Shown in pieces: positions 12,870 through 36,772 of a stretch of 64,000 bases of DNA (within the stretch, counting starts at the first letter, position 1; every line of letters starts with the position of its first letter). This DNA comes from Pantoea wallisii (lineage in GTDB: Bacteria; Pseudomonadota; Gammaproteobacteria; Enterobacterales; Enterobacteriaceae). Under the pieces are notes generated by a model, which saw only the letters and a list, made by a program, of their open reading frames with translations, made no database searches and had not been told where the DNA came from. A program made the position numbers and the translations under genes. Location: the NCBI RefSeq assembly GCF_002095485.1, contig NZ_MLFS01000017.1, forward strand, positions 1-64,000, in the 5' to 3' direction.

Positions 12870-13109
12870 ACTCCTTAAGCCCGGAGGGCATCCGTAAAGC
12901 GAAGTGATATCAGTATAATAGCGTAATCACGATCACACTTTGGCGTGCCACTGGCGCAGTCAATATCCAGGATAATTCTTAAAAGGCCGGCATGCTAAAA
13001 AGTTTGATGCACGCTTTGTGCACCGCTTTTATCAGTCGTGAAGCGATGTTTTCGGTAACAGCTACGCATGATTATGCAGATTTGTTCGATTAGCGTGCAG
13101 AAATGAGAC

Positions 13110-13137
13110 TTGTCTTAATACAGTTAAAGCGTAATCT
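13110..13137 (+). promoter_or_regulatory. Candidate dsrA promoter
   Basis: TTGTCT, 16 bp, TAATCT, placing a start near 13144, immediately before the DsrA-like sequence. Sequence match only. Confidence 0.5.
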
Positions 13138-13143
13138 GGCCCG

Positions 13144-13212
13144 GTGTTAAGATTTCCTGGTGTAACGAATTTACTGATCTCTTTTACCCGGCCATCCCGC
13201 CGGGTATTTTTT
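13144..13212 (+). ncRNA. dsrA: DsrA regulatory RNA, short form
   Basis: Positions 13150-13172 are identical, as far as I can recall, to the E. coli DsrA segment (core ATTTCCTGGTGTAACGAATT) that pairs with the rpoS leader to activate its translation. A terminator hairpin follows (ACCCGGC / GCCGGGT then seven T). The location near yodD and dsrB matches E. coli synteny. The RNA would be about 65-70 nt against 87 in E. coli: the middle hairpin that carries the hns-pairing segment is replaced by a linker of about 13-14 nt. The 5' end is estimated. Confidence 0.85.
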
Positions 13213-13223
13213 TGAAATCGATT

Positions 13224-13460
13224 TCAGCGGTTCACTTCGGAGATGGTGAAGTCCCGGATGTCCAGTTCAAAAGCGTCGGCCAGCTCAGTATAAGAGTCGA
13301 ATGCCTGACCATTAACGTGCACGCGGTGCGCGTGTTCCGCTTCCATAAACTCTTTCACCTCGCCTGAAGTCCTCTTTTGAATCGCTTCCAGTAACGATTC
13401 AACGTCAATGTTCACTTCACGCTGTACGTTGTCGCTGTACTCTTTTGCTGTCGTCATCAT
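13224..13460 (-). CDS. yodD: YodD peroxide/acid-stress protein
   Basis: A 78-residue protein matching E. coli YodD in its start (TTAKEYSDNVQREVNIDVE) and end (LADAFELDIRDFTISEVNR). Function is unknown; the E. coli gene is stress-induced and RpoS-dependent. The ATG at 13460 has a GGGAGG ribosome site; longer upstream readings run into unrelated sequence. A CTATACT element, typical of RpoS promoters, lies on this strand near 13490-13496. Confidence 0.88.
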   Translation of the reverse strand: MMTTAKEYSDNVQREVNIDVESLLEAIQKRTSGEVKEFMEAEHAHRVHVNGQAFDSYTELADAFELDIRDFTISEVNR

Positions 13461-29909: not shown

Positions 29910-30086
29910 TTATGGTAGCGAGAGTCGTTCGCCAATCACTTTATAGCCAAGATCGGCGAATTTTTGCTGGCCGATTGACTCATTTTTGGTGGGCTCAAAC
30001 CAGGCATCGGCTTGTTCACCTGAGAAAAACCAGACCTCAGGCTCATTCGTGCCCAGCTGCACCCAATAAAATCCTTCCTTCATCAT
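29910..30086 (-). CDS. Small YWV/PEVW family protein, copy 1
   Basis: A 58-residue protein, MMKEGFYWVQLGTNEPEVWF with a later GYKVIGERLSLP end. It shares the pattern GFYWV-x-EPEVW-x-W/F-aromatic-P-x-KVxGERL with the genes at 30178 (minus) and 31770 (plus). Start chosen at 30086 (or 30083) because of GGAGG upstream; a longer reading exists but lacks a ribosome site. Function unknown. Confidence 0.65.
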   Translation of the reverse strand: MMKEGFYWVQLGTNEPEVWFFSGEQADAWFEPTKNESIGQQKFADLGYKVIGERLSLP

Positions 30087-30177
30087 CGCATCCTCCAGTG
30101 AGGAATATAGTCCAGCTACGCTGCGCTTAACAGCGCAACCGGCGATATTCTCAGAAAGAGACGAAAACTGAGGTAGC

Positions 30178-30354
30178 TTATGGCTCATCCGGCGGCGTCA
30201 GTTTGCCACTGAGAAGTTTAAAGCCTGCAGATTTAAAACGAGGCAGAGAAAGCGGAATTGGCTCCATGGGACGATAAAACCCCCGTCCTGCATCCCAATA
30301 CCATACCTCCGGCTCCGTTGTACTGCTGCCAACCCAGTAAAAACCCGTTTCCAT
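30178..30354 (-). CDS. Small YWV/PEVW family protein, copy 2
   Basis: A 58-residue ORF beginning METGFYWVGSSTTEPEVWYW and containing GFYRPMEPIPL and KLLSGKLTPPDEP. It lies directly upstream of copy 1 on the same strand, so the pair looks like a tandem duplication. CTGGAGAG precedes the ATG. Function unknown. Confidence 0.65.
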   Translation of the reverse strand: METGFYWVGSSTTEPEVWYWDAGRGFYRPMEPIPLSLPRFKSAGFKLLSGKLTPPDEP

Positions 30355-30523: not shown

Positions 30524-30724
30524 TCACTGATCCTGATAGGGATCTTTTTTGTGATCATCACTGTCATCACGCGTGCGTGGTATTTCGCCATGTTCATTAG
30601 CGTTATCTGTCGCTGGATGATCATCTTCCTCATAAGCATTACCGGCATTTGGAGCGGCTTCCGGTAATCCTTTATGTACTTCACCTTCGTCTTTGCGCTC
30701 CTTATTCGTACTATGTTGCTTCAT
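30524..30724 (-). CDS. Small hydrophilic, probably disordered protein
   Basis: A 66-residue protein (MKQHSTNKERKDEGEVHKGL...) with almost no hydrophobic residues, rich in Asp, Glu, Lys, His and Asn; likely intrinsically disordered. Start chosen at 30724 behind GGAGAG. It resembles small stress/desiccation-type proteins in composition only. An overlapping frame (30466-30684) is considered a shadow. Confidence 0.5.
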   Translation of the reverse strand: MKQHSTNKERKDEGEVHKGLPEAAPNAGNAYEEDDHPATDNANEHGEIPRTRDDSDDHKKDPYQDQ

Positions 30725-30828
30725 ATTGCTCTCCATCTTTTAACGTAATGTAATGATGAATTTCATGTTCCGCGCAGCGGTTTTCTGCCACGGGGAAGCC
30801 TGTTCCTACTGTACACGCAGTAGGGTTA

Positions 30829-30858
30829 ACTTGTACAGTTTTGCAAACCTGTACAAGT
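30829..30858. promoter_or_regulatory. MlrA/BluR-type operator dyad, site 1
   Basis: Perfect ten-base inverted repeat ACTTGTACAG / CTGTACAAGT with a 10-nt spacer, i.e. TTGTACA-N12-TGTACAA. This matches the architecture I recall for the MlrA box in front of E. coli csgD (TTGTACA-N12-TGTACAA core); BluR is an MlrA paralogue. It lies upstream of the divergent 30524 gene and the ariR region. The regulator gene is not in this window. Confidence 0.6.
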
Positions 30859-31060: not shown

Positions 31061-31092
31061 AGTTGTACAACATTGCAAAGTTTGTATAACTT
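31061..31092 (+). promoter_or_regulatory. Operator/promoter of sRNA A, site 2
   Basis: AGTTGTACAA...TTGTATAACTT dyad. Within it TTGTAC (31063-31068), 16 bp, TATAAC (31085-31090) form a plausible sigma-70 promoter, so a MerR-type regulator would sit between -35 and -10. The same layout recurs on the minus strand at 36741-36772. Confidence 0.65.
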
Positions 31093-31096
31093 CTCG

Positions 31097-31183
31097 GGGT
31101 GGCAATCAGTCACACGTAACGAATGATGCATTGCATCGCCTCTGAAGGTGTTGTGGATTTCCACCTTCAGAGGCTCTTTTTTT
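31097..31183 (+). ncRNA. Candidate small RNA A (ariR leader or free sRNA)
   Basis: Predicted RNA of about 87 nt from the promoter above to a strong intrinsic terminator. Structure: hairpin 1 GATGC-ATT-GCATC (31125-31137), then terminator hairpin with 13-base arms (31138-31150 and 31162-31174) and a T tract to 31183. A second, diverged copy exists at 36639-36735 with compensatory changes in both stems. Since ariR starts only 75 bp downstream, it may be an attenuating leader. No family is recognised; the 5' end is estimated. Confidence 0.65.
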
Positions 31184-31257
31184 ACCTGACTGATTCAATA
31201 TTCACTCTGACAGTAATGGTCATCGCACCGGCTGTTAAGCAACTTGTGAGGCTTGTA

Positions 31258-31521
31258 ATGGAACTAAGGTCATTGGCATCAACTGAGTCTCAGCTATCTG
31301 AATATTTTAAAAACGCCGGTGCACAATACACCAGTGAAAAAGAAGTTATTGCAATCATCTACAAACAGCTGGCTGCCGTGAAACTCCGCGTAAGTAATAA
31401 AGATATTATTCTGGCACTGCTTGAGAGGTTAGAATCTGAGCATGATGTTGTCCAGCTGGATATTTATCGCCAGGCGTTGGAGCTGATCGTTCAGCGGGCA
31501 CCAGAGGAAACAGCACCGTAA
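31258..31521 (+). CDS. ariR: AriR/YmgB-type biofilm and acid-resistance regulator
   Basis: An 87-residue helical protein resembling E. coli AriR (YmgB): SEYFKNAGAQYTSEKEVI, NKDIILALLERLESEHDVVQ, DIYRQALELIVQ. In E. coli the ycgZ-ymgA-ariR-ymgC operon is repressed by BluR, relieved by the blue-light photoreceptor BluF and acts on biofilm through the Rcs system. Here a BLUF-EAL gene lies about 460 bp downstream and rcsA elsewhere in the window. Start chosen at MELRSLAST; the frame open further upstream runs through a terminator hairpin and is not used. Confidence 0.75.
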   Translation: MELRSLASTESQLSEYFKNAGAQYTSEKEVIAIIYKQLAAVKLRVSNKDIILALLERLESEHDVVQLDIYRQALELIVQRAPEETAP

Positions 31522-31582
31522 ATATTGTCTCCAAAGAAGTGACGGTGATTCGCTGACAGTGATGTAAGTTGCGTAAATTAAT

Positions 31583-31607
31583 GGCCCCTCAGCGCAGGGG
31601 CTTTTTC
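31583..31607 (+). terminator. Rho-independent terminator after ariR
   Basis: GCCCCT / AGGGGC stem followed by TTTTT. Confidence 0.8.
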
Positions 31608-31769
31608 ATTTCTTGCGCTTCGCTTATTCAATGCATAAACCGCTGACTGGATTCGCGCGCGTTATACTCTGCTAAGATTAGTGGTTAAGGCTGGATTCTC
31701 CATCGCGCCAAAAGCGTGTTCATCAGGCGTGCAGAACAGCCTGAACAACGATTATCTTCAGGTAAGACT

Positions 31770-31949
31770 ATGCAAGACGGCTATTACTGGGTCAAAGATG
31801 GTGAACGCTTTCCGGAAGTGTGGCTCTATCAGCGGCAATTTGGCTGGTTTCGTCCCTGCAGCGCGGTCCCCATGACGCAGAAAACCTTTGAGCTGATGAA
31901 GTACAAAGTACTCGGCGAGCGCCTGAACCAACCGCTCAGGCAGTATTGA
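31770..31949 (+). CDS. Small YWV/PEVW family protein, copy 3
   Basis: A 59-residue protein, MQDGYYWVKDGERFPEVWLY then GWFRPCSAVPM and YKVLGERLNQP. It shares with copies 1 and 2 the GxYWV, PEVW, aromatic-RP and KVLGERL elements, although it is on the other strand 1.4 kb away. CAGGTAAG precedes the ATG. Function unknown. Confidence 0.65.
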   Translation: MQDGYYWVKDGERFPEVWLYQRQFGWFRPCSAVPMTQKTFELMKYKVLGERLNQPLRQY

Positions 31950-31950
31950 T

Positions 31951-31975
31951 CGTCAACCGCAGCAAGCGGTTGACG
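31951..31975. terminator. Hairpin between convergent genes
   Basis: Perfect ten-base stem CGTCAACCGC / GCGGTTGACG with a 5-nt loop between copy 3 and the bluF-like gene. No T tract, so termination activity is uncertain. Confidence 0.5.
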
Positions 31976-31983
31976 CCAGGGCA

Positions 31984-33195
31984 TTACTTAATTTCCGGCC
32001 AGGCAACCACGGGGAATCCGCTGAACTGCGGACGGGCAAACAGATATCCCTGGAACTGGCTGATGCCAACCGCTTCCAGCCACATCCACTCTTCCGCTTT
32101 CTCCACGCCTTCTGCAACAACGGCAATCTCCAGCGATGCACAGCACTTGATGATGGCATGCACAATGGCCTGCTTGGGGCCGCTTTTATGCACATCGCTG
32201 ATAATTTCGCGGTCGATCTTGATCTTATCCGGCTGAAACTTAGAGAGCAGAGACAATCCCGCAAAGCCGGCGCCAAAATCATCCAGCGCCAGGCTAATGC
32301 CGGCGGCCTTAAGTTTTTTCACTTCCGCCGTAAACTCTTCGGCGCGGGAGATAATCTCATTCTCCGTGACTTCTACCACGATCTGTTCCGGAATCAGCCC
32401 GTTAGCATTGATCTCTTTCAGCAGAAATTCCACCGCATCAGGCACCGTCACCAGCGACATCGGTAACAGATTGATGGTCAATGTCTGGTTACCGATGCCC
32501 AGTTTCTTTGCCAGGCTGAACGCCAGGCTTTTGGCCTGAATGTCAGCGTGATAGATGGCCTCTCCGCCGAATGCAGCAAAATACTCCTGCGGTGAACCGC
32601 CGGTGGGGGTACGGATCAACGCTTCATAGGCGGTGATGCGACGGGAAAACGGATCGACAATCGGCTGGAATGCAAAGCGGCAATCCTGGACGTGATGCTG
32701 GAAGCTCTCCAGCTCGCGATACGAGTCACTGTCGGCTACAAACTCCCAGGTGCTGGCCGGCGGGATTTCGAAGTAGTTCTCTTTCTCGCGCGCCTCAACA
32801 AAGGTACGCAGAAACTGGAGTGCGCGATCGTCGTAAGTCAGCTGATAGCGCGAGGTACCTTTATCCAGTACGGCCTGTAGCACGCTGGATTTTTCGTGTT
32901 CGCGTAGATCAAACAGCTCCATCCCGACATTACCAAAGCGGCGGGCAGGGGCGAAGTCATGCATCAGTTCAACGAGGTTATGGTGGCGTGCGTCCTGGCA
33001 AATACGATTGTAAATTCCCTGTACCTCCTGATCCGGTCCTTCCAGTAACTGGAAGAAATGCAGCCCATCAAAAAGTAATATTCCTGTCACGCTCGACAGT
33101 TCATTTTTTTTGTTGGCCTTTGCCACCATGTCTTGCAGCGTTTTCACTGGAACATGGTCATAAAGGTGGCTGCGATAAAGGATGGTGGTCAGCAT
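31984..33195 (-). CDS. bluF: BLUF-EAL blue-light photoreceptor (BluF/YcgF-like)
   Basis: A 403-residue protein. The N-terminal BLUF flavin domain (1-95) shows the photocycle Tyr7 (TILYRS), Asn31 and a Gln at about 49 (FFQLLEG). The C-terminal EAL domain (about 165-395) contains EALIR (191-195), INLLP (N242), VVEVTE (E275, E278), LDDFGAG (D305, D306), IKID (K326), AEGVE (E362) and QGYLFARP (Q382). E. coli BluF has no phosphodiesterase activity and instead antagonises the repressor BluR; here the catalytic residues look complete, so activity cannot be excluded. Confidence 0.9.
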   Translation of the reverse strand: MLTTILYRSHLYDHVPVKTLQDMVAKANKKNELSSVTGILLFDGLHFFQLLEGPDQEVQGIYNRICQDARHHNLVELMHDFAPARRFGNVGMELFDLREHEKSSVLQAVLDKGTSRYQLTYDDRALQFLRTFVEAREKENYFEIPPASTWEFVADSDSYRELESFQHHVQDCRFAFQPIVDPFSRRITAYEALIRTPTGGSPQEYFAAFGGEAIYHADIQAKSLAFSLAKKLGIGNQTLTINLLPMSLVTVPDAVEFLLKEINANGLIPEQIVVEVTENEIISRAEEFTAEVKKLKAAGISLALDDFGAGFAGLSLLSKFQPDKIKIDREIISDVHKSGPKQAIVHAIIKCCASLEIAVVAEGVEKAEEWMWLEAVGISQFQGYLFARPQFSGFPVVAWPEIK

Positions 33196-33441
33196 GTAGA
33201 TTATCCGGCTGTATAATTATTTTGGCTCATACAGTAGCAGGCGCATAGCGGGGTCTGTCCAGCGCTAAGCGGCATGATCGTCCACTATTTCGTAAAATTA
33301 GCGTTAAACGAAACGGCTAAAATGGCTCGTCAAGTCAATTTGTTCATGCTGTACGCAACGCATGCATTATCGATAAATAAATTCGATTGAATAGATAAAT
33401 GAAAAGCGTATGGTTGCTCACGTTAACCAGAGGTGAGAAAC

Positions 33442-33690
33442 ATGTTACGTGATTATTTGAAGATTGATGAGAGCGATCGTTTAGTTGAACAGAGTGTGTT
33501 GCGCCAAAATAACCGGGGCCAGGAAGATGTCACCGAGTGGCGCATTATTGCCGCCAATGGCGAAGCGAAAGGCCGCGTTGTGCTGTTTGATAAGCTCAGC
33601 AATCGTCGCTCCTGGCCTGTCAGCTATCGCATTATGCAAACAGACATGCAGGGCAAAGTTGTAGTCGATCATCTGACCGACGTGCTGTAA
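33442..33690 (+). CDS. Small hypothetical protein
   Basis: An 82-residue protein (MLRDYLKIDESDRLVEQSVL...) with a probable beta-rich core (EWRIIAANGEAKGRVVLFDK, SYRIMQTDMQGKVVVDHL). Not recognised. A good ribosome site (AGAGGTGAG) precedes ATG 33442, and a terminator follows. Confidence 0.6.
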   Translation: MLRDYLKIDESDRLVEQSVLRQNNRGQEDVTEWRIIAANGEAKGRVVLFDKLSNRRSWPVSYRIMQTDMQGKVVVDHLTDVL

Positions 33691-33716
33691 TTTTTGCCGT
33701 AGTGCTTGCAAGACTT

Positions 33717-33740
33717 AACCCGCGCTGCCGCGGGTTTTTT
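33717..33740 (+). terminator. Rho-independent terminator
   Basis: AACCCGCG / CGCGGGTT stem with a 4-nt loop and T run. Confidence 0.88.
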
Positions 33741-33745
33741 GCATC

Positions 33746-34396
33746 TTATCCCTGACTCATACGCCGGCGCAGCTCAACCAGCGTGCCGATTATCTGCAGT
33801 TGATTATCTTCACTGTGCAACGCCGGAAAATCCGGGTTTAGCGGCCGTAACGAAAAAACAGGCGCGTCATTGCGCTGCTCATGTACCCGGTAAATTCGCA
33901 CCTGCACGTGGCTGTTTACCAATGCCAGCACGACGACACCCGGTTTCGCCTCCAGCGCAGGCTCAAAGATTAATCGATCGCCAGGTCGAAAGTCCGGCTG
34001 CATCGCCGCATCTTCCAGCGTCACCGCCAGCGCGCCGTCACTGAGTGGCGTATCACTGTAGAGAAAGTGTGTCGCCTGCGTCTGCAGGCGCAAACGCTCT
34101 TCGCCTGACCAGCCTGCGGCCTGGGCCAGACTCAGTAAAGGCACCGCGGTGACAGCATGCGGATGAGTGGCGTGATCAAACACCTCGCCATCGCCATCAA
34201 TGATCCACGCCGGCGTACACTGCAGCAATTCTGCCAGCCGGAGCAGATTCTCTCCACGCGGTACGGTTTCTTCCTTTTCCCATTGTGAAACAGCCACATG
34301 TGATACGCCGATACCACTGGCCAGCGCTTGCTGCGTATAGGCCAGCGCTTTGCGCCGCGTACGGATACGTTCACCCATCGATTCTTTCATCATCAT
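33746..34396 (-). CDS. P22 c2-like phage repressor, S24 dyad degenerate
   Basis: A 216-residue XRE/S24 repressor. The N-terminus (MGERIRTRRKAL...GVSHVAVSQWEKEET) closely resembles the P22 c2 helix-turn-helix. The C-terminal S24 domain keeps an Ala-Gly linker (LAQAAGW) but the position of the catalytic Ser (usually DSM) reads DAAM, and the Lys of the dyad appears as Arg (HVQVRIYR). If so, it cannot self-cleave under RecA. Two c2-type operators lie in its promoter region, between it and the divergent three-gene set. Start chosen behind AGGAG. Confidence 0.85.
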   Translation of the reverse strand: MMMKESMGERIRTRRKALAYTQQALASGIGVSHVAVSQWEKEETVPRGENLLRLAELLQCTPAWIIDGDGEVFDHATHPHAVTAVPLLSLAQAAGWSGEERLRLQTQATHFLYSDTPLSDGALAVTLEDAAMQPDFRPGDRLIFEPALEAKPGVVVLALVNSHVQVRIYRVHEQRNDAPVFSLRPLNPDFPALHSEDNQLQIIGTLVELRRRMSQG

Positions 34397-34420
34397 CTTG
34401 ACAACTCCTGATTGGTTGAC

Positions 34421-34434
34421 TTAAGTATACTTAA
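34421..34434. promoter_or_regulatory. Repressor operator O1
   Basis: Perfect palindrome TTAAGTATACTTAA, matching the P22 c2 operator pattern TTAAG-N4-CTTAA. It lies about 25 bp upstream of the repressor start. Confidence 0.7.
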
Positions 34435-34443
34435 ATTCATTAA

Positions 34444-34458
34444 TTAAAGTAAACTTAA
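34444..34458. promoter_or_regulatory. Repressor operator O2
   Basis: TTAAAGTAAACTTAA, an imperfect copy of O1 whose AAGT-N2-ACTT core is centred 24 bp away, allowing cooperative binding. Confidence 0.65.
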
Positions 34459-34538
34459 ATAACGGCGCTGGCTGCACATCTGGCAAGGGCAGTCAGCGAA
34501 TCTAAGTCAGGCATATTGCCAGTGTTGAGAGGTGAGGC

Positions 34539-34928
34539 ATGGAGAGTAGTTTGGTCACAAGCGTTGGCGCACTGCTTCTCGGCGGGGGGGCAGCAGCGGT
34601 GTTCTGGAAACCGTTAATGGCGGGTATTGCCGCTATCGTCACCAGCAATCGCGCAGGCGGCGAGATCATCACCAGCTACAAAGAGCAGGTGCTGCTTCTC
34701 AAAGAGAGCCATGTGCTGATGCGTCAGGAGAACGATGAGCTACGTATCCGCCACGATAAGAATCTGCGGCGTATCTCATCGCTGGAGACCGATCTGCGGC
34801 TGATAAAGAACGCCCTTGGCATTCTGCTGGCAACAACGGAAGCCGATCACAGCGATAAGTTCCGCAGTCAGATTAATCAACTGATCACCACACTGGAGGA
34901 GAACCGCGATGGTGCAGATAAACAGTGA
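34539..34928 (+). CDS. Membrane-anchored coiled-coil protein
   Basis: A 129-residue protein: a Gly/Ala-rich hydrophobic N-terminus (SSLVTSVGALLLGGGAAAVF, one likely membrane segment up to about residue 35) and then a charged coiled coil (YKEQVLLLKESHVLMRQEND...). Not recognised. First gene of a set divergent from the c2-like repressor and probably controlled by O1/O2. TGAGAGGTGAGGC precedes the ATG. Confidence 0.6.
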   Translation: MESSLVTSVGALLLGGGAAAVFWKPLMAGIAAIVTSNRAGGEIITSYKEQVLLLKESHVLMRQENDELRIRHDKNLRRISSLETDLRLIKNALGILLATTEADHSDKFRSQINQLITTLEENRDGADKQ

Positions 34929-35238
34929 GTTCGTTGTGAAGAGCCATCGGCGGCACCTGCTGCTGGGAGGGCTGCTAATGCTGTTATCGCTGCTGTGCGT
35001 AGCGATGACCATCATGTTTGTTTATGTCAACAACAGCGCTAACCGGCGCGTCGAAGATATCCGTCATCAGTATCGGGTGATTTCCGATCGGCGCGAAGCA
35101 AAAGTCGCAGAGTTAACCAATCAGGTGATTGTGCTGCAGAAAAAACTTGAGAGCCCCCAGGGCCAGGCCAGCAGTAAGGCTGCGGGCAAAGCCAATCCGA
35201 CGGCAGGGCAGGCGTCGCCGCCAGCGACATCCCGCTAA
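34909..35238 (+). CDS. Single-pass membrane protein
   Basis: A 109-residue protein whose start overlaps the previous gene by 20 bp. It has one strong membrane helix (LLLGGLLMLLSLLCVAMTIM, about residues 18-45), a short coiled coil and an Ala/Pro/Ser-rich disordered tail. The topology recalls an i-spanin, but there is no overlapping o-spanin or lysozyme, so a lysis function is not claimed. Confidence 0.55.
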   Translation: MVQINSEFVVKSHRRHLLLGGLLMLLSLLCVAMTIMFVYVNNSANRRVEDIRHQYRVISDRREAKVAELTNQVIVLQKKLESPQGQASSKAAGKANPTAGQASPPATSR

Positions 35239-35248
35239 GGAGGCCAGA

Positions 35249-35841
35249 ATGCGTATTACCGAGCAGATCGCAGACAGTTTCCATCGACTGTGGTCTTTAT
35301 TAAGCAAGAAGGAGAAAGTTATGAGTGAACAAACTGTCATCGCACCAACGAATACCGAGGCGGAGCACGATCTGTCGCCACTGGAGAGTTTTGCTAATGA
35401 GACAGCCACCACATCAGCGGTGGCGACGCCAGCCACAGGCGCGCCGGCGGCCGCGCTGTTCAAAAACAGGAGGATACCGCTGCGCAGGCTGATAGCACTG
35501 GCGTGGCGCCAATCGTAGCAGAGCAGCCGGCTGCTGCAGACGCACCTGTCGATCTGGATCAGCAGCTGGCGACGCAGGATCCGCTGGCAAATGGGTCTGC
35601 CAGCGCTGGTGCATCATCTGCCTCGACACCGGGCTTACGCAACGATCAGCAACCTGATGCATCGGTAAGCCCGCCAGCACCTGCTTCATCTGCATCCGCG
35701 GCGACAGACACCGTGCGCCAGGACATTGCTGCCGGTGTGAAGGATTTTGCCCAGGCTTTCAGCTTCGTCGAACAGGGCGTACTGAAACTGGGGTCGGCAG
35801 CAAAGGATGAGCTGATCGCGCTGGCGAAGAAGTATATGTAA
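35249..35841 (+). pseudogene. Ala/Ser/Pro-rich unknown protein, frame broken at 35462-35466
   Basis: Third gene of the repressor-linked set, with a strong AAGGAGG ribosome site. The first frame reads MRITEQIADSFHRLWSLLSK... to ...ALFKNRRIPL and stops at 35518; the second is open upstream of its nominal GTG at 35503 (QEDTAAQADSTGV) and ends ...ELIALAKKYM. Restoring one A in the CAAAAAC run fuses them into about 197 residues: low-complexity middle and a helical C-terminus. An alternative start at 35321 also has a good ribosome site. Confidence 0.55.
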
Positions 35842-35979
35842 GGCTCAAATAATATGGGAACAGGATGTTCCCAGCTTGCACTGCTTCCGATTATTCTTAG
35901 AGCGGTCTCGCTATTTTCTACTATCTTTAATCGTTCGAGCGTTATTTTAACTGGCTTTTACAGCGAAAAGGAAAATAGC

Positions 35980-36246
35980 ATGAGTGATACAGAGGCAATC
36001 AAAACCAAAACTGAATACCTGCGTGATGTCACCTCACAGCTAAAAGAGATGCGTCACTACGCGCAGACAAATACCGAGACGCTCTCAAGCCACTGGCTGG
36101 CCTTTGACGCCGGAGAGTATAAGGACAAAGAGAATGCAGCACGGTTTGATGCGCTGATAAATAAGCAGGGCAAGTTGCTGGATGATATTGATCTGGCGAT
36201 TCAGGATCTGGAAATCGCCATCAACCACAGTGAGCAGGAGAGCTAA
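35980..36246 (+). CDS. Small helical hypothetical protein
   Basis: An 88-residue, acidic, all-helical protein (MSDTEAIKTKTEYLRDVTSQ...). Start chosen at 35980 behind AAAAGGAAAATAGC; the upstream extension of the frame is not protein-like. Not recognised; convergent with the DinI-family gene. Confidence 0.55.
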   Translation: MSDTEAIKTKTEYLRDVTSQLKEMRHYAQTNTETLSSHWLAFDAGEYKDKENAARFDALINKQGKLLDDIDLAIQDLEIAINHSEQES

Positions 36247-36264
36247 GCCCGCTCTGCTGGTGGC

Positions 36265-36507
36265 TTAATCAGCCACCAGCCACATTTCCGCTTCATCGAA
36301 CATCTCTTCTACGATACGCGCGATGGTCGCTTTATCATTTTTACTCATATCCGTATCAATCGCGTTACGCTCCATTGGCTTAACGCGTACTTCCAGATCC
36401 GGAAAGACGCGGTGAACGCGCTTCTCCAGCTCCTCTAAAATCATCTCACGCGCGCCAGGCAGGCCGGCGACATTGCGCTTGTCGTAAATCAGTTCCACAA
36501 ACATCAA
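36265..36507 (-). CDS. DinI/MsgA family DNA-damage-inducible protein
   Basis: An 80-residue protein of the DinI family, closest in memory to Salmonella MsgA: MFVELIYDKRNVAGLPGARE, VHRVFPDLEVRVKPM, and the acidic C-terminal helix IARIVEEMFDEAEMW. DinI modulates RecA filaments and UmuD/LexA cleavage. A LexA box lies 34 bp upstream of the start. The second ATG (36504) may be the true start. Confidence 0.85.
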   Translation of the reverse strand: MMFVELIYDKRNVAGLPGAREMILEELEKRVHRVFPDLEVRVKPMERNAIDTDMSKNDKATIARIVEEMFDEAEMWLVAD

Positions 36508-36540
36508 AGCGATCCATTAATCAAAGTGGGAGCGTAATAA

Positions 36541-36560
36541 TACTGTAAATAAAAACAGTG
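36541..36560 (-). promoter_or_regulatory. LexA box upstream of the DinI-family gene
   Basis: TACTGTaaataaaaACAGTG: perfect CTGT-N8-ACAG core, one mismatch in the outer dyad. Indicates SOS control of the gene starting at 36507. Confidence 0.85.
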
Positions 36561-36638
36561 GCAAGCGGCGTTCAGGCAAAAATTTCTATTTCTGGCAAAC
36601 GTCGCACAAACGGGTGAGGAAGAAGCAGGGCAGAAGGG

Positions 36639-36735
36639 AAAAATTGAACCTCTGGAGGTGGAAATCCAGCAACACCTCCAGAGGCGGTGCAAGCGCACCA
36701 TTCGTTCAAGGACAATCTACGACACACGTCGTGAG
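36639..36735 (-). ncRNA. Candidate small RNA B
   Basis: Predicted RNA of about 97 nt on the minus strand, a second copy of the structure at 31097. Hairpin 1 is GGTGC-GCTT-GCACC (36699-36686); the terminator hairpin has 12-base arms (36684-36673 and 36660-36649) followed by TTCAATTTTT. Against copy A, hairpin 1 changes an A-T pair to G-C and the terminator stem changes an A-T pair to G-C, so pairing is kept. Shared sequence blocks are AACGAATG, CGCCTCTG, AGGTGTTG and TGGATTTCCACCT. No family is recognised. Confidence 0.65.
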
Positions 36736-36740
36736 CATTA

Positions 36741-36772
36741 AGTTATACAACTTTTTCTTTGTTGTACAACTT
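36741..36772 (-). promoter_or_regulatory. Operator/promoter of sRNA B, site 3
   Basis: On the minus strand TTGTAC, 16 bp, TATAAC inside AGTTGTACAAC...GTTGTATAACTT; spacing and outer bases equal those of site 2 at 31061, while the inner spacer differs. This argues that the outer dyad is the selected element. Confidence 0.65.

Follow-up and report, generated by a model that had tools for sequence, protein, structure and literature searches.

The 64,000-nt stretch of Pantoea wallisii DNA analyzed here (contig NZ_MLFS01000017.1; hereafter the window) contains two copies, on opposite strands, of a compact unit made of a promoter, hairpins and an intrinsic terminator, which we describe as a predicted small RNA (sRNA) gene. 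Copy 1 is followed by a ymgB/ariR-family gene and, on the other strand, by bluF; copy 2 precedes dinI. Both units were found where the original prediction, made from the sequence alone, had placed them, together with all of the elements that it described. It had counted two copies 5.5 kb apart. Both are real, but the count was incomplete, as whole-genome BLAST and a covariance model located a third on another contig (G000:C3:37290-37387). Copy 2 matches copy 1 with 85% identity over 70 nt in the BLAST search (E=3.2e-14), and the covariance model, which was built from 30 distinct copies with the genome's own three among them, matches those three with E values of 1.6e-22, 6.2e-21 and 4.5e-16. 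The coordinates of the features are collected in the table.

The predicted RNA has three stems: a variable 5' stem-loop, a short hairpin and the terminator hairpin, whose loop measures about 11-13 nt. The short hairpin and the terminator had been recognized before (in copy 2, on the minus strand, GGTGC-GCTT-GCACC at 36699-36686 and a terminator with CTGGAGG/CCTCCAG), but the further 5' hairpin (31099-31113 in copy 1) had been overlooked. An unpaired GUAACGAAU lies between stem-loops 1 and 2, and the large terminator loop bears GGAUUUCC. The features of an Hfq-dependent trans-acting sRNA, a Rho-independent terminator with a U-tail and an unpaired seed, are present, and the copies are probably genes of such an RNA of about 85-100 nt, probably Hfq-dependent. 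The 5' end of copy 1 was estimated from its -10 and the 3' end placed in the T-run. A generic sigma-70 scan picked up neither copy's promoter, and a generic terminator scan neither copy's terminator, presumably since the loop exceeds its 8-nt limit. As for coding sequence at copy 1, an open frame runs from ATGATG at 31123 into ymgB; it was rejected, as the frame is broken between the copies. Loop lengths differ by one or two bases from copy to copy, and therefore the copies are not conserved coding sequence.

Table. Coordinates of the predicted features in the window
Feature	Position	Strand	Remarks
Predicted sRNA copy 1	31096..31181	+	model match 31086-31181, E=6.2e-21; BLAST
Predicted sRNA copy 2	36641..36739	-	model match, E=4.5e-16
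BluR/MlrA-type operator TTGTACA-N13-TGTATAA, copy 1	31063..31089	+	overlaps putative -35 (TTGTAC, 31063-31068) and, after N16, putative -10 (TATAAC, 31085-31090)
BluR/MlrA-type operator and promoter of copy 2	36743..36769	-	pattern match; TTGTAC-N16-TATAAC within 36769-36742
Further operator, N12 spacing	30831..30856		upstream of a 70-codon open reading frame on the minus strand (30524-30736)
Stem-loop 1 of copy 1 (GTGGC..GTCAC)	31099..31113	+	sequence variable, stem conserved
Unpaired GTAACGAAT of copy 1	31116..31124	+	complementary to rpoS leader AUUCGUUAC (-105)
Stem-loop 2 of copy 1, GATGC-ATT-GCATC	31125..31137	+	
Intrinsic terminator hairpin of copy 1	31138..31181	+	11-nt loop; arms 31138-31150 / 31162-31174, followed by T-run
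GGATTTCC of copy 1	31155..31162	+	7/8 bases in terminator loop; complementary to rpoS leader GGAAAUCC (-92)
CCTTGAACGAAT of copy 2	36700..36711	-	antisense to rpoS AUUCGUUACAAGG, one bulged base
GGATTTCC of copy 2	36660..36667	-	in terminator loop
ymgB/ariR-family gene downstream of copy 1	31207..31521	+	Pfam PF10798, E=1.6e-23; start codon uncertain
bluF, BLUF-EAL protein	31984..33195	-	Pfam BLUF and EAL; alignment with E. coli BluF
Diverged, shortened DsrA-like sRNA candidate (comparator)	13140..13213	+	E. coli dsrA position, between yodD and yedP

The differences between the two copies had been said to keep the stems paired, and the same holds across homologues. In a MAFFT alignment of the 30 distinct copies, both sides of a pair have changed in 35 cells compared with 9.5 in shuffles, a number that none of 500 shuffles reached, and 96.9% of cells are paired compared with 37-48% when the partners are slid. 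Weaker measures of covariation on this alignment gave 7 pairs against 4.5 (reached by 2 of 500 shuffles) and 19 further pair types against 16.8 (28 of 500). An alignment of 86 distinct rows, which was fitted to the covariance model and so leans towards structure, contains 239 cells changed on both sides against 63 (0 of 500 shuffles); it took in 99 matches, three of them weak additional hits (E above 0.003) at loci already represented. The conserved stems and the operator common to the copies support a family of structured small-RNA genes that share an operator-promoter, and we are nearly certain that the copies form such a family.

By BLAST, the core is present in 34 of 35 relatives of the same genus, with 1-4 matches each (G013 matched in the terminator part only), and absent from all 24 genomes of other families that were searched. 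The covariance model (R1) has matches in 45 of 392 genomes of the family and in 21 of 154 genera, the window's own genus included; the weakest of these matches are possibly not genuine members. Scanning named genomes with a pattern returned 66 stretches, 62 of which were judged real by inspection. These come from Pantoea, Erwinia, Mixta, Izhakiella, Winslowiella, Serratia, Franconibacter and a few genomes labelled Enterobacter. The other four matches (a Burkholderiales metagenome-assembled genome, Paenibacillus, a proteobacterial metagenome-assembled genome and Sphingobium) had, by eye, no hairpin and terminator and were dropped as chance. Four Pantoea megaplasmid records match at 85-87% identity over 43-53% of the query; the gene table, itself incomplete, lists no gene beneath the matches. 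Copy 2 keeps its position beside a DUF6388 gene and dinI in four genomes (G000, G002, G009 and G017), and the duplication is therefore old. That no named family fits, as first proposed, agrees with Rfam, which gave no match at cut-off in the window or at the sRNA in 16 homologous loci; two Rfam hits in these loci are unrelated elements in the flanks. We thus describe a predicted multi-copy sRNA family of Pantoea and other Enterobacterales genera that has no Rfam match at cut-off. An RNA-seq study of P. ananatis lists 615 sRNAs, including RprA and ArcZ (PMC6749038), and an RNA-seq sRNA catalogue also exists for E. amylovora (PMC4070566); some of the copies may already be among the P. ananatis sRNAs under pPAR numbers.

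The promoter dyad common to both copies was present as predicted, but its identity as a BluR/MlrA-type operator had been overlooked. Shuffled windows contain a mean of 0.00 matches to it. In the whole 4.65-Mb genome, the pattern TTGTACA-N13-TGTAYAA occurs at six distinct sites and the reversed pattern at none. The six are the three sRNA promoters, the promoter of the sole close BluR/MlrA-type gene, the site at 30831-30856 and one at C76:658. The regulator (G000:C28:23406-24131; L035 1498-2232) shares 67% of its residues with E. coli BluR and 55% with MlrA, and two further hits in the genome reach only 25-26% identity. It is nearer to BluR in sequence, yet sits in the mlrA locus and scores under the NCBIfam MlrA cut-off (310 vs 417 bits), and is therefore best called BluR/MlrA-type; a BluR-like sequence in the mlrA locus bears on which of the two regulators is ancestral. 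Its own promoter bears TTGTACA-N13-TGTACAA, so that the predicted sRNA genes share their operator with the gene of the regulator that is predicted to bind it. E. coli BluR and MlrA sites are likewise built of GTACA half-sites, the MlrA site being AAAGTTGTACA(12N)TGCACAATTTT (PMC3509220). The half-site spacing in Pantoea appears nearer to that of the MlrA site at csgD than to that of the ycgZ promoter.

The association between operator, sRNA and regulator gene recurs in related genomes. Sixteen Pantoea genomes, hand-picked by the author from 36 at hand, contain 53 distinct operator sites (reversed control, 0), which were assigned by hand using tblastn on the loci, the sRNA coordinates and, for two copies, the sequence. 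Fifteen belong to the regulator gene, 25 to this sRNA and four to ycgZ-like genes; nine lie elsewhere, one of them (G026) about 600 nt from a YcgZ-like match. Each of the 15 genomes having any site has one at the regulator gene, and G023 has no sites. Among the 62 named homologues, 39 have the exact operator and eight more have it with one mismatch (47/62), compared with 3 of 620 random 110-mers, which came from the same loci and hence include true operators. A BluR/MlrA-type protein (E<=1e-60) is encoded in 41 of the 45 genomes with a model match and in 98 of the 347 others; both searches drew on the 392 family genomes and the tally was made by hand from the lists. On these sequence comparisons, it is very likely that the promoter dyad is a BluR/MlrA operator. 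A TTAGCACNAATTGC-like element recurs upstream of operators (for example in L010 and L044) and at the E. coli ycgZ promoter (L034). An AGCAC-like element stands upstream of the promoters of 34 of the 62 homologues, compared with 23% of random stretches, and is found in front of E. coli ycgZ as well; a second regulator may bind the TTAGCACNAATTGC-like element. The operator on C76 (L043 658-684, G000:C76) lies upstream of a small stress-type operon without an NCBIfam match, whose genes we take to be of the KGG-repeat and YciF-like kinds.

Outside the stems, two stretches are nearly invariant in the alignment of 30 copies: stems 1 and 2 are separated by GUAACGAA, and the terminator loop contains GGAUUUCC. 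Of the unpaired motifs, GTAACGAA and GGATTTCC are the most conserved, and they are complementary to neighboring segments of the rpoS leader (AATTCGTTACAAGGGGAAATCC) that are also matched by the sRNA DsrA. In a set of 65 copies, 45 have an intact GTAACGAA and 36 an intact GGATTTCC, with 29 having both. This set consists of the 67 copies compared with rpoS leaders minus two without a leader, and keeps in its counts several of the weakest model matches (for example L099, L102 and L104-L106), which are possibly not members. A folding model predicts that both motifs are mostly unpaired in the genome's own copies, the third included (probabilities 0.55-0.73 and 0.89-0.93). The leader site, the 21-mer ATTCGTTACAAGGGGAAATCC, is present in 44 of 44 rpoS leaders; one genome that is 49% complete (G087) gave no rpoS. 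A perfect complementary run of 8-14 nt to the 21-mer was found in 53 of the 65 copies and in 0-4 shuffled copies. Across 3000 random genomic 21-mers, at most 32 copies had such a run, and only 57 of the 3000 reached 10 or more copies. The combined pattern TTCGTTAC-N0-30-GGAAATCC, chosen after rpoS had been seen, occurs once in each of 12 genomes and always as the 20-mer TTCGTTACAAGGGGAAATCC. By coordinates, ten of these places fall within the rpoS leader; the remaining two are in G003 and G023. The pattern read backwards gave one match (in G178), and the opposite motif order gave three, two of which are the antisense strand of the sRNA genes themselves. The complementarity to the upstream leader site that marks rpoS-pairing sRNAs is therefore present, and rpoS is likely to be a direct target.

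Among the closest known counterparts is DsrA (RF00014), which in E. coli reads GATTTCCTGGTGTAACGAATTT. It too has GUAACGAAU, together with a second element, GAUUUCC, and both can pair with this rpoS leader site; as in the new family, GUAACGAAU stands unpaired between the first two of three stem-loops. In DsrA, however, GAUUUCC precedes GUAACGAAU, whereas in the new sRNA the order is reversed and GGAUUUCC lies in the terminator loop; locus and promoter also differ, and the new sRNA is multi-copy. The E. coli dsrA neighborhood (rcsA, dsrB, yodD, yedP) is found in the window. The new copies do not lie between yodD and yedP; the interval 12870-13226 there holds a DsrA-like candidate with AAGATTTCCTGGTGTAACGAATTT, the full rpoS antisense element, followed by a terminator. 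Among the loci compared, contiguous GAUUUCC-N4-GUAACGAAU is confined to E. coli dsrA and the antisense strand of rpoS leaders, and in the window it occurs in this candidate. Replacement of DsrA by the new sRNA was considered and dropped after this diverged candidate had been read at the syntenic site. The genome very probably has a short DsrA too, to which the new sRNAs would add.

The Rfam DsrA model found nothing in the window at cut-off, near both copies (E up to 10) or at six loci (E up to 5), and the new model scores only 4.8 bits (E 0.94) at E. coli dsrA. The DsrA-like candidate itself reaches 17.6 bits in the Rfam model, with a cut-off of 60, so that the model misses a candidate at the expected place in this Pantoea. 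No DsrA over the Rfam cut-off was found in 60 genomes of the genus (one weak match lies below it) or in the five genus members of the family sample, and because of the miss in the window such absences from other genomes are unreliable. The AACGAAT element is also present in E. coli DsrA and RprA. RprA (RF00034) contains AACGAAU and acts on rpoS (PMC11331407), but we saw no further similarity to the new sRNA; it is Rcs-induced in E. coli (PMC11331407), with no BluR operator known to us. ArcZ (RF00081) also activates rpoS, by opening the ribosome site, but its pairing region is -91 to -63 and it undergoes RNase E processing (PMC11331407), and Rfam gave no match to it in the window.

Our preferred reading, to which we lean with moderate confidence, is an Hfq-type, rpoS-pairing sRNA family repressed by the BluR/MlrA-type regulator. 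This MerR regulator would sit on the sRNA promoters, most likely repressing them as E. coli BluR represses ycgZ. Release from DNA by an antagonist, which in E. coli is BluF in blue light, would allow the sRNAs to be made, and these would use GUAACGAAU and the terminator loop to base-pair with the rpoS leader where DsrA also matches it. Pairing would most likely raise RpoS translation, as with DsrA, RprA and ArcZ (PMC11331407), and activation is slightly favored over repression. With the two motifs in this order, a single continuous duplex is ruled out; the contact could possibly consist of a linear seed plus a kissing terminator loop, or of two alternative contacts. The E. coli BluR-BluF-ycgZ-ymgAB pathway has the same components (a BluR/MlrA-type regulator, a BLUF-EAL protein, a ymgB gene and GTACA half-sites), but differs in that its description names no sRNA as a direct BluR target and has RprA reached via Rcs (PMC3509220). 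Literature searches, mostly at the level of search results, found no sRNA directly under BluR or MlrA. If the proposed reading is true, the BluR/BluF light-biofilm pathway would be joined to the general stress response in one RNA step, and rpoS pairing would have a second architecture in a genus that keeps up to four copies. The sRNAs may thus connect light or biofilm signals with the general stress response.

Several observations weigh against this reading. The regulator gene adjoins yehW and yehX, the neighborhood of mlrA, and many distant homologues have, by eye, no operator (for example L069-L073 and L088), which limits the BluR link to part of the family. In E. coli the 21-mer lies within the end of the nlpD reading frame, so that its conservation is expected from the NlpD protein and says nothing about pairing. 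Twelve of the 65 copies have no 8-nt run, complementarity does not in general extend past the motif (0 extra bases in 39 of the 62 homologues), and the motif order is wrong for one continuous antisense duplex. A 5' extension of the complementarity, striking in single cases (14 nt in L058), was not general across the 62 and was abandoned. Predicted pairing energies are -11.4 to -15.2 kcal/mol for the GUAACGAAU segment and -14.7 to -17.1 kcal/mol for the loop segment, against -25.7 for the DsrA-like candidate. With the energies of three copies summed, rpoS ranks eighth for the GUAACGAAU segment among 411 leaders sampled from about 480 kb; the better leaders include those of bluF and of the gene upstream of rpoS (apparently nlpD), and for single copies 19-37 of the 411 pair as well as rpoS. 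Modeled accessibility of the ribosome site in the rpoS leader is equivocal: blocking the site opens the Shine-Dalgarno region but closes the start codon, and the E. coli leader used as a yardstick departs from its known behavior.

The ranking fits an alternative in which the regulator controls the sRNA but its main targets are other mRNAs, for example of biofilm, motility or the bluF/ymgB pathway, the rpoS match being secondary. Small RNAs often regulate many targets, and the DsrA-like candidate, with its much stronger rpoS match, lies in the same window. This alternative leaves aside that the two conserved unpaired motifs are complementary to a single 20-nt site, which is present exactly once in all 12 genomes, and the Erwinia-type loop variant GGGTTTCC would still pair there through G-U; we regard it as rather unlikely. 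The bluF leader (upstream of 33195, minus strand) is one of the seven sampled leaders that pair better with the GUAACGAAU segment, and bluF mRNA is a possible feedback target of the sRNA.

The hairpins and terminator could instead form a cis-acting leader, an attenuator of downstream ymgB, given that 42 of the 62 named homologues have a ymgB/ycgZ-like gene within 400 nt downstream on the same strand, the sRNA standing between it and the operator. Such a gene is missing in the other 20 (a few loci being shortened by contig ends or stretch limits), copy 2 precedes dinI with a CTG-N10-CAG box between, a strong terminator closes the stretch, and the unpaired motifs are kept whatever the downstream gene, all of which make attenuation improbable. 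It is more improbable still that GGAUUUCC acts as a sponge for RprA-type sRNAs rather than on rpoS: E. coli RprA contains GGAAAUCC, and GGAAATCC is present in it, but the equally conserved GUAACGAA would be left unexplained.

The light step is the weakest part of the proposed rpoS-pairing mechanism. E. coli BluF has a degenerate EAL domain. When eight of its EAL positions were changed back to consensus, antagonism of BluR was weakened (PMC3509220). The Pantoea BluF, in contrast, is not degenerate, having the consensus residue at seven of the eight EAL positions altered in E. coli BluF, and may still be an active phosphodiesterase of cyclic di-GMP (c-di-GMP). Because the regulator is in the mlrA locus and BluF appears to have kept its EAL residues, the light mechanism known from E. 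coli may not apply in Pantoea, a further point against the preferred reading. We consider blue-light control of the sRNAs somewhat doubtful. A bolder proposal, which we consider unlikely, is that a light- and temperature-responsive MerR regulator of the BluR/MlrA type directly represses a multi-copy 'permuted DsrA'. This RNA would grip the rpoS leader in crossed order, with a linear seed and with its terminator loop in a kissing contact, and in leaf-dwelling Pantoea blue-light or c-di-GMP signaling would thereby be coupled directly to RpoS.

The surroundings of the two copies contain further small features. Copy 1 is flanked by three small proteins that resemble one another and have a GFYWV...EPEVW-type motif (29910-30354, minus strand; 31770-31949, plus strand). 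Pfam was searched with two of them and NCBIfam with all three, in neither case with a match. Downstream of copy 2 and before dinI lies a LexA-like box, CTG-N10-CAG (36543-36558, minus strand), which we take to follow the LexA consensus.

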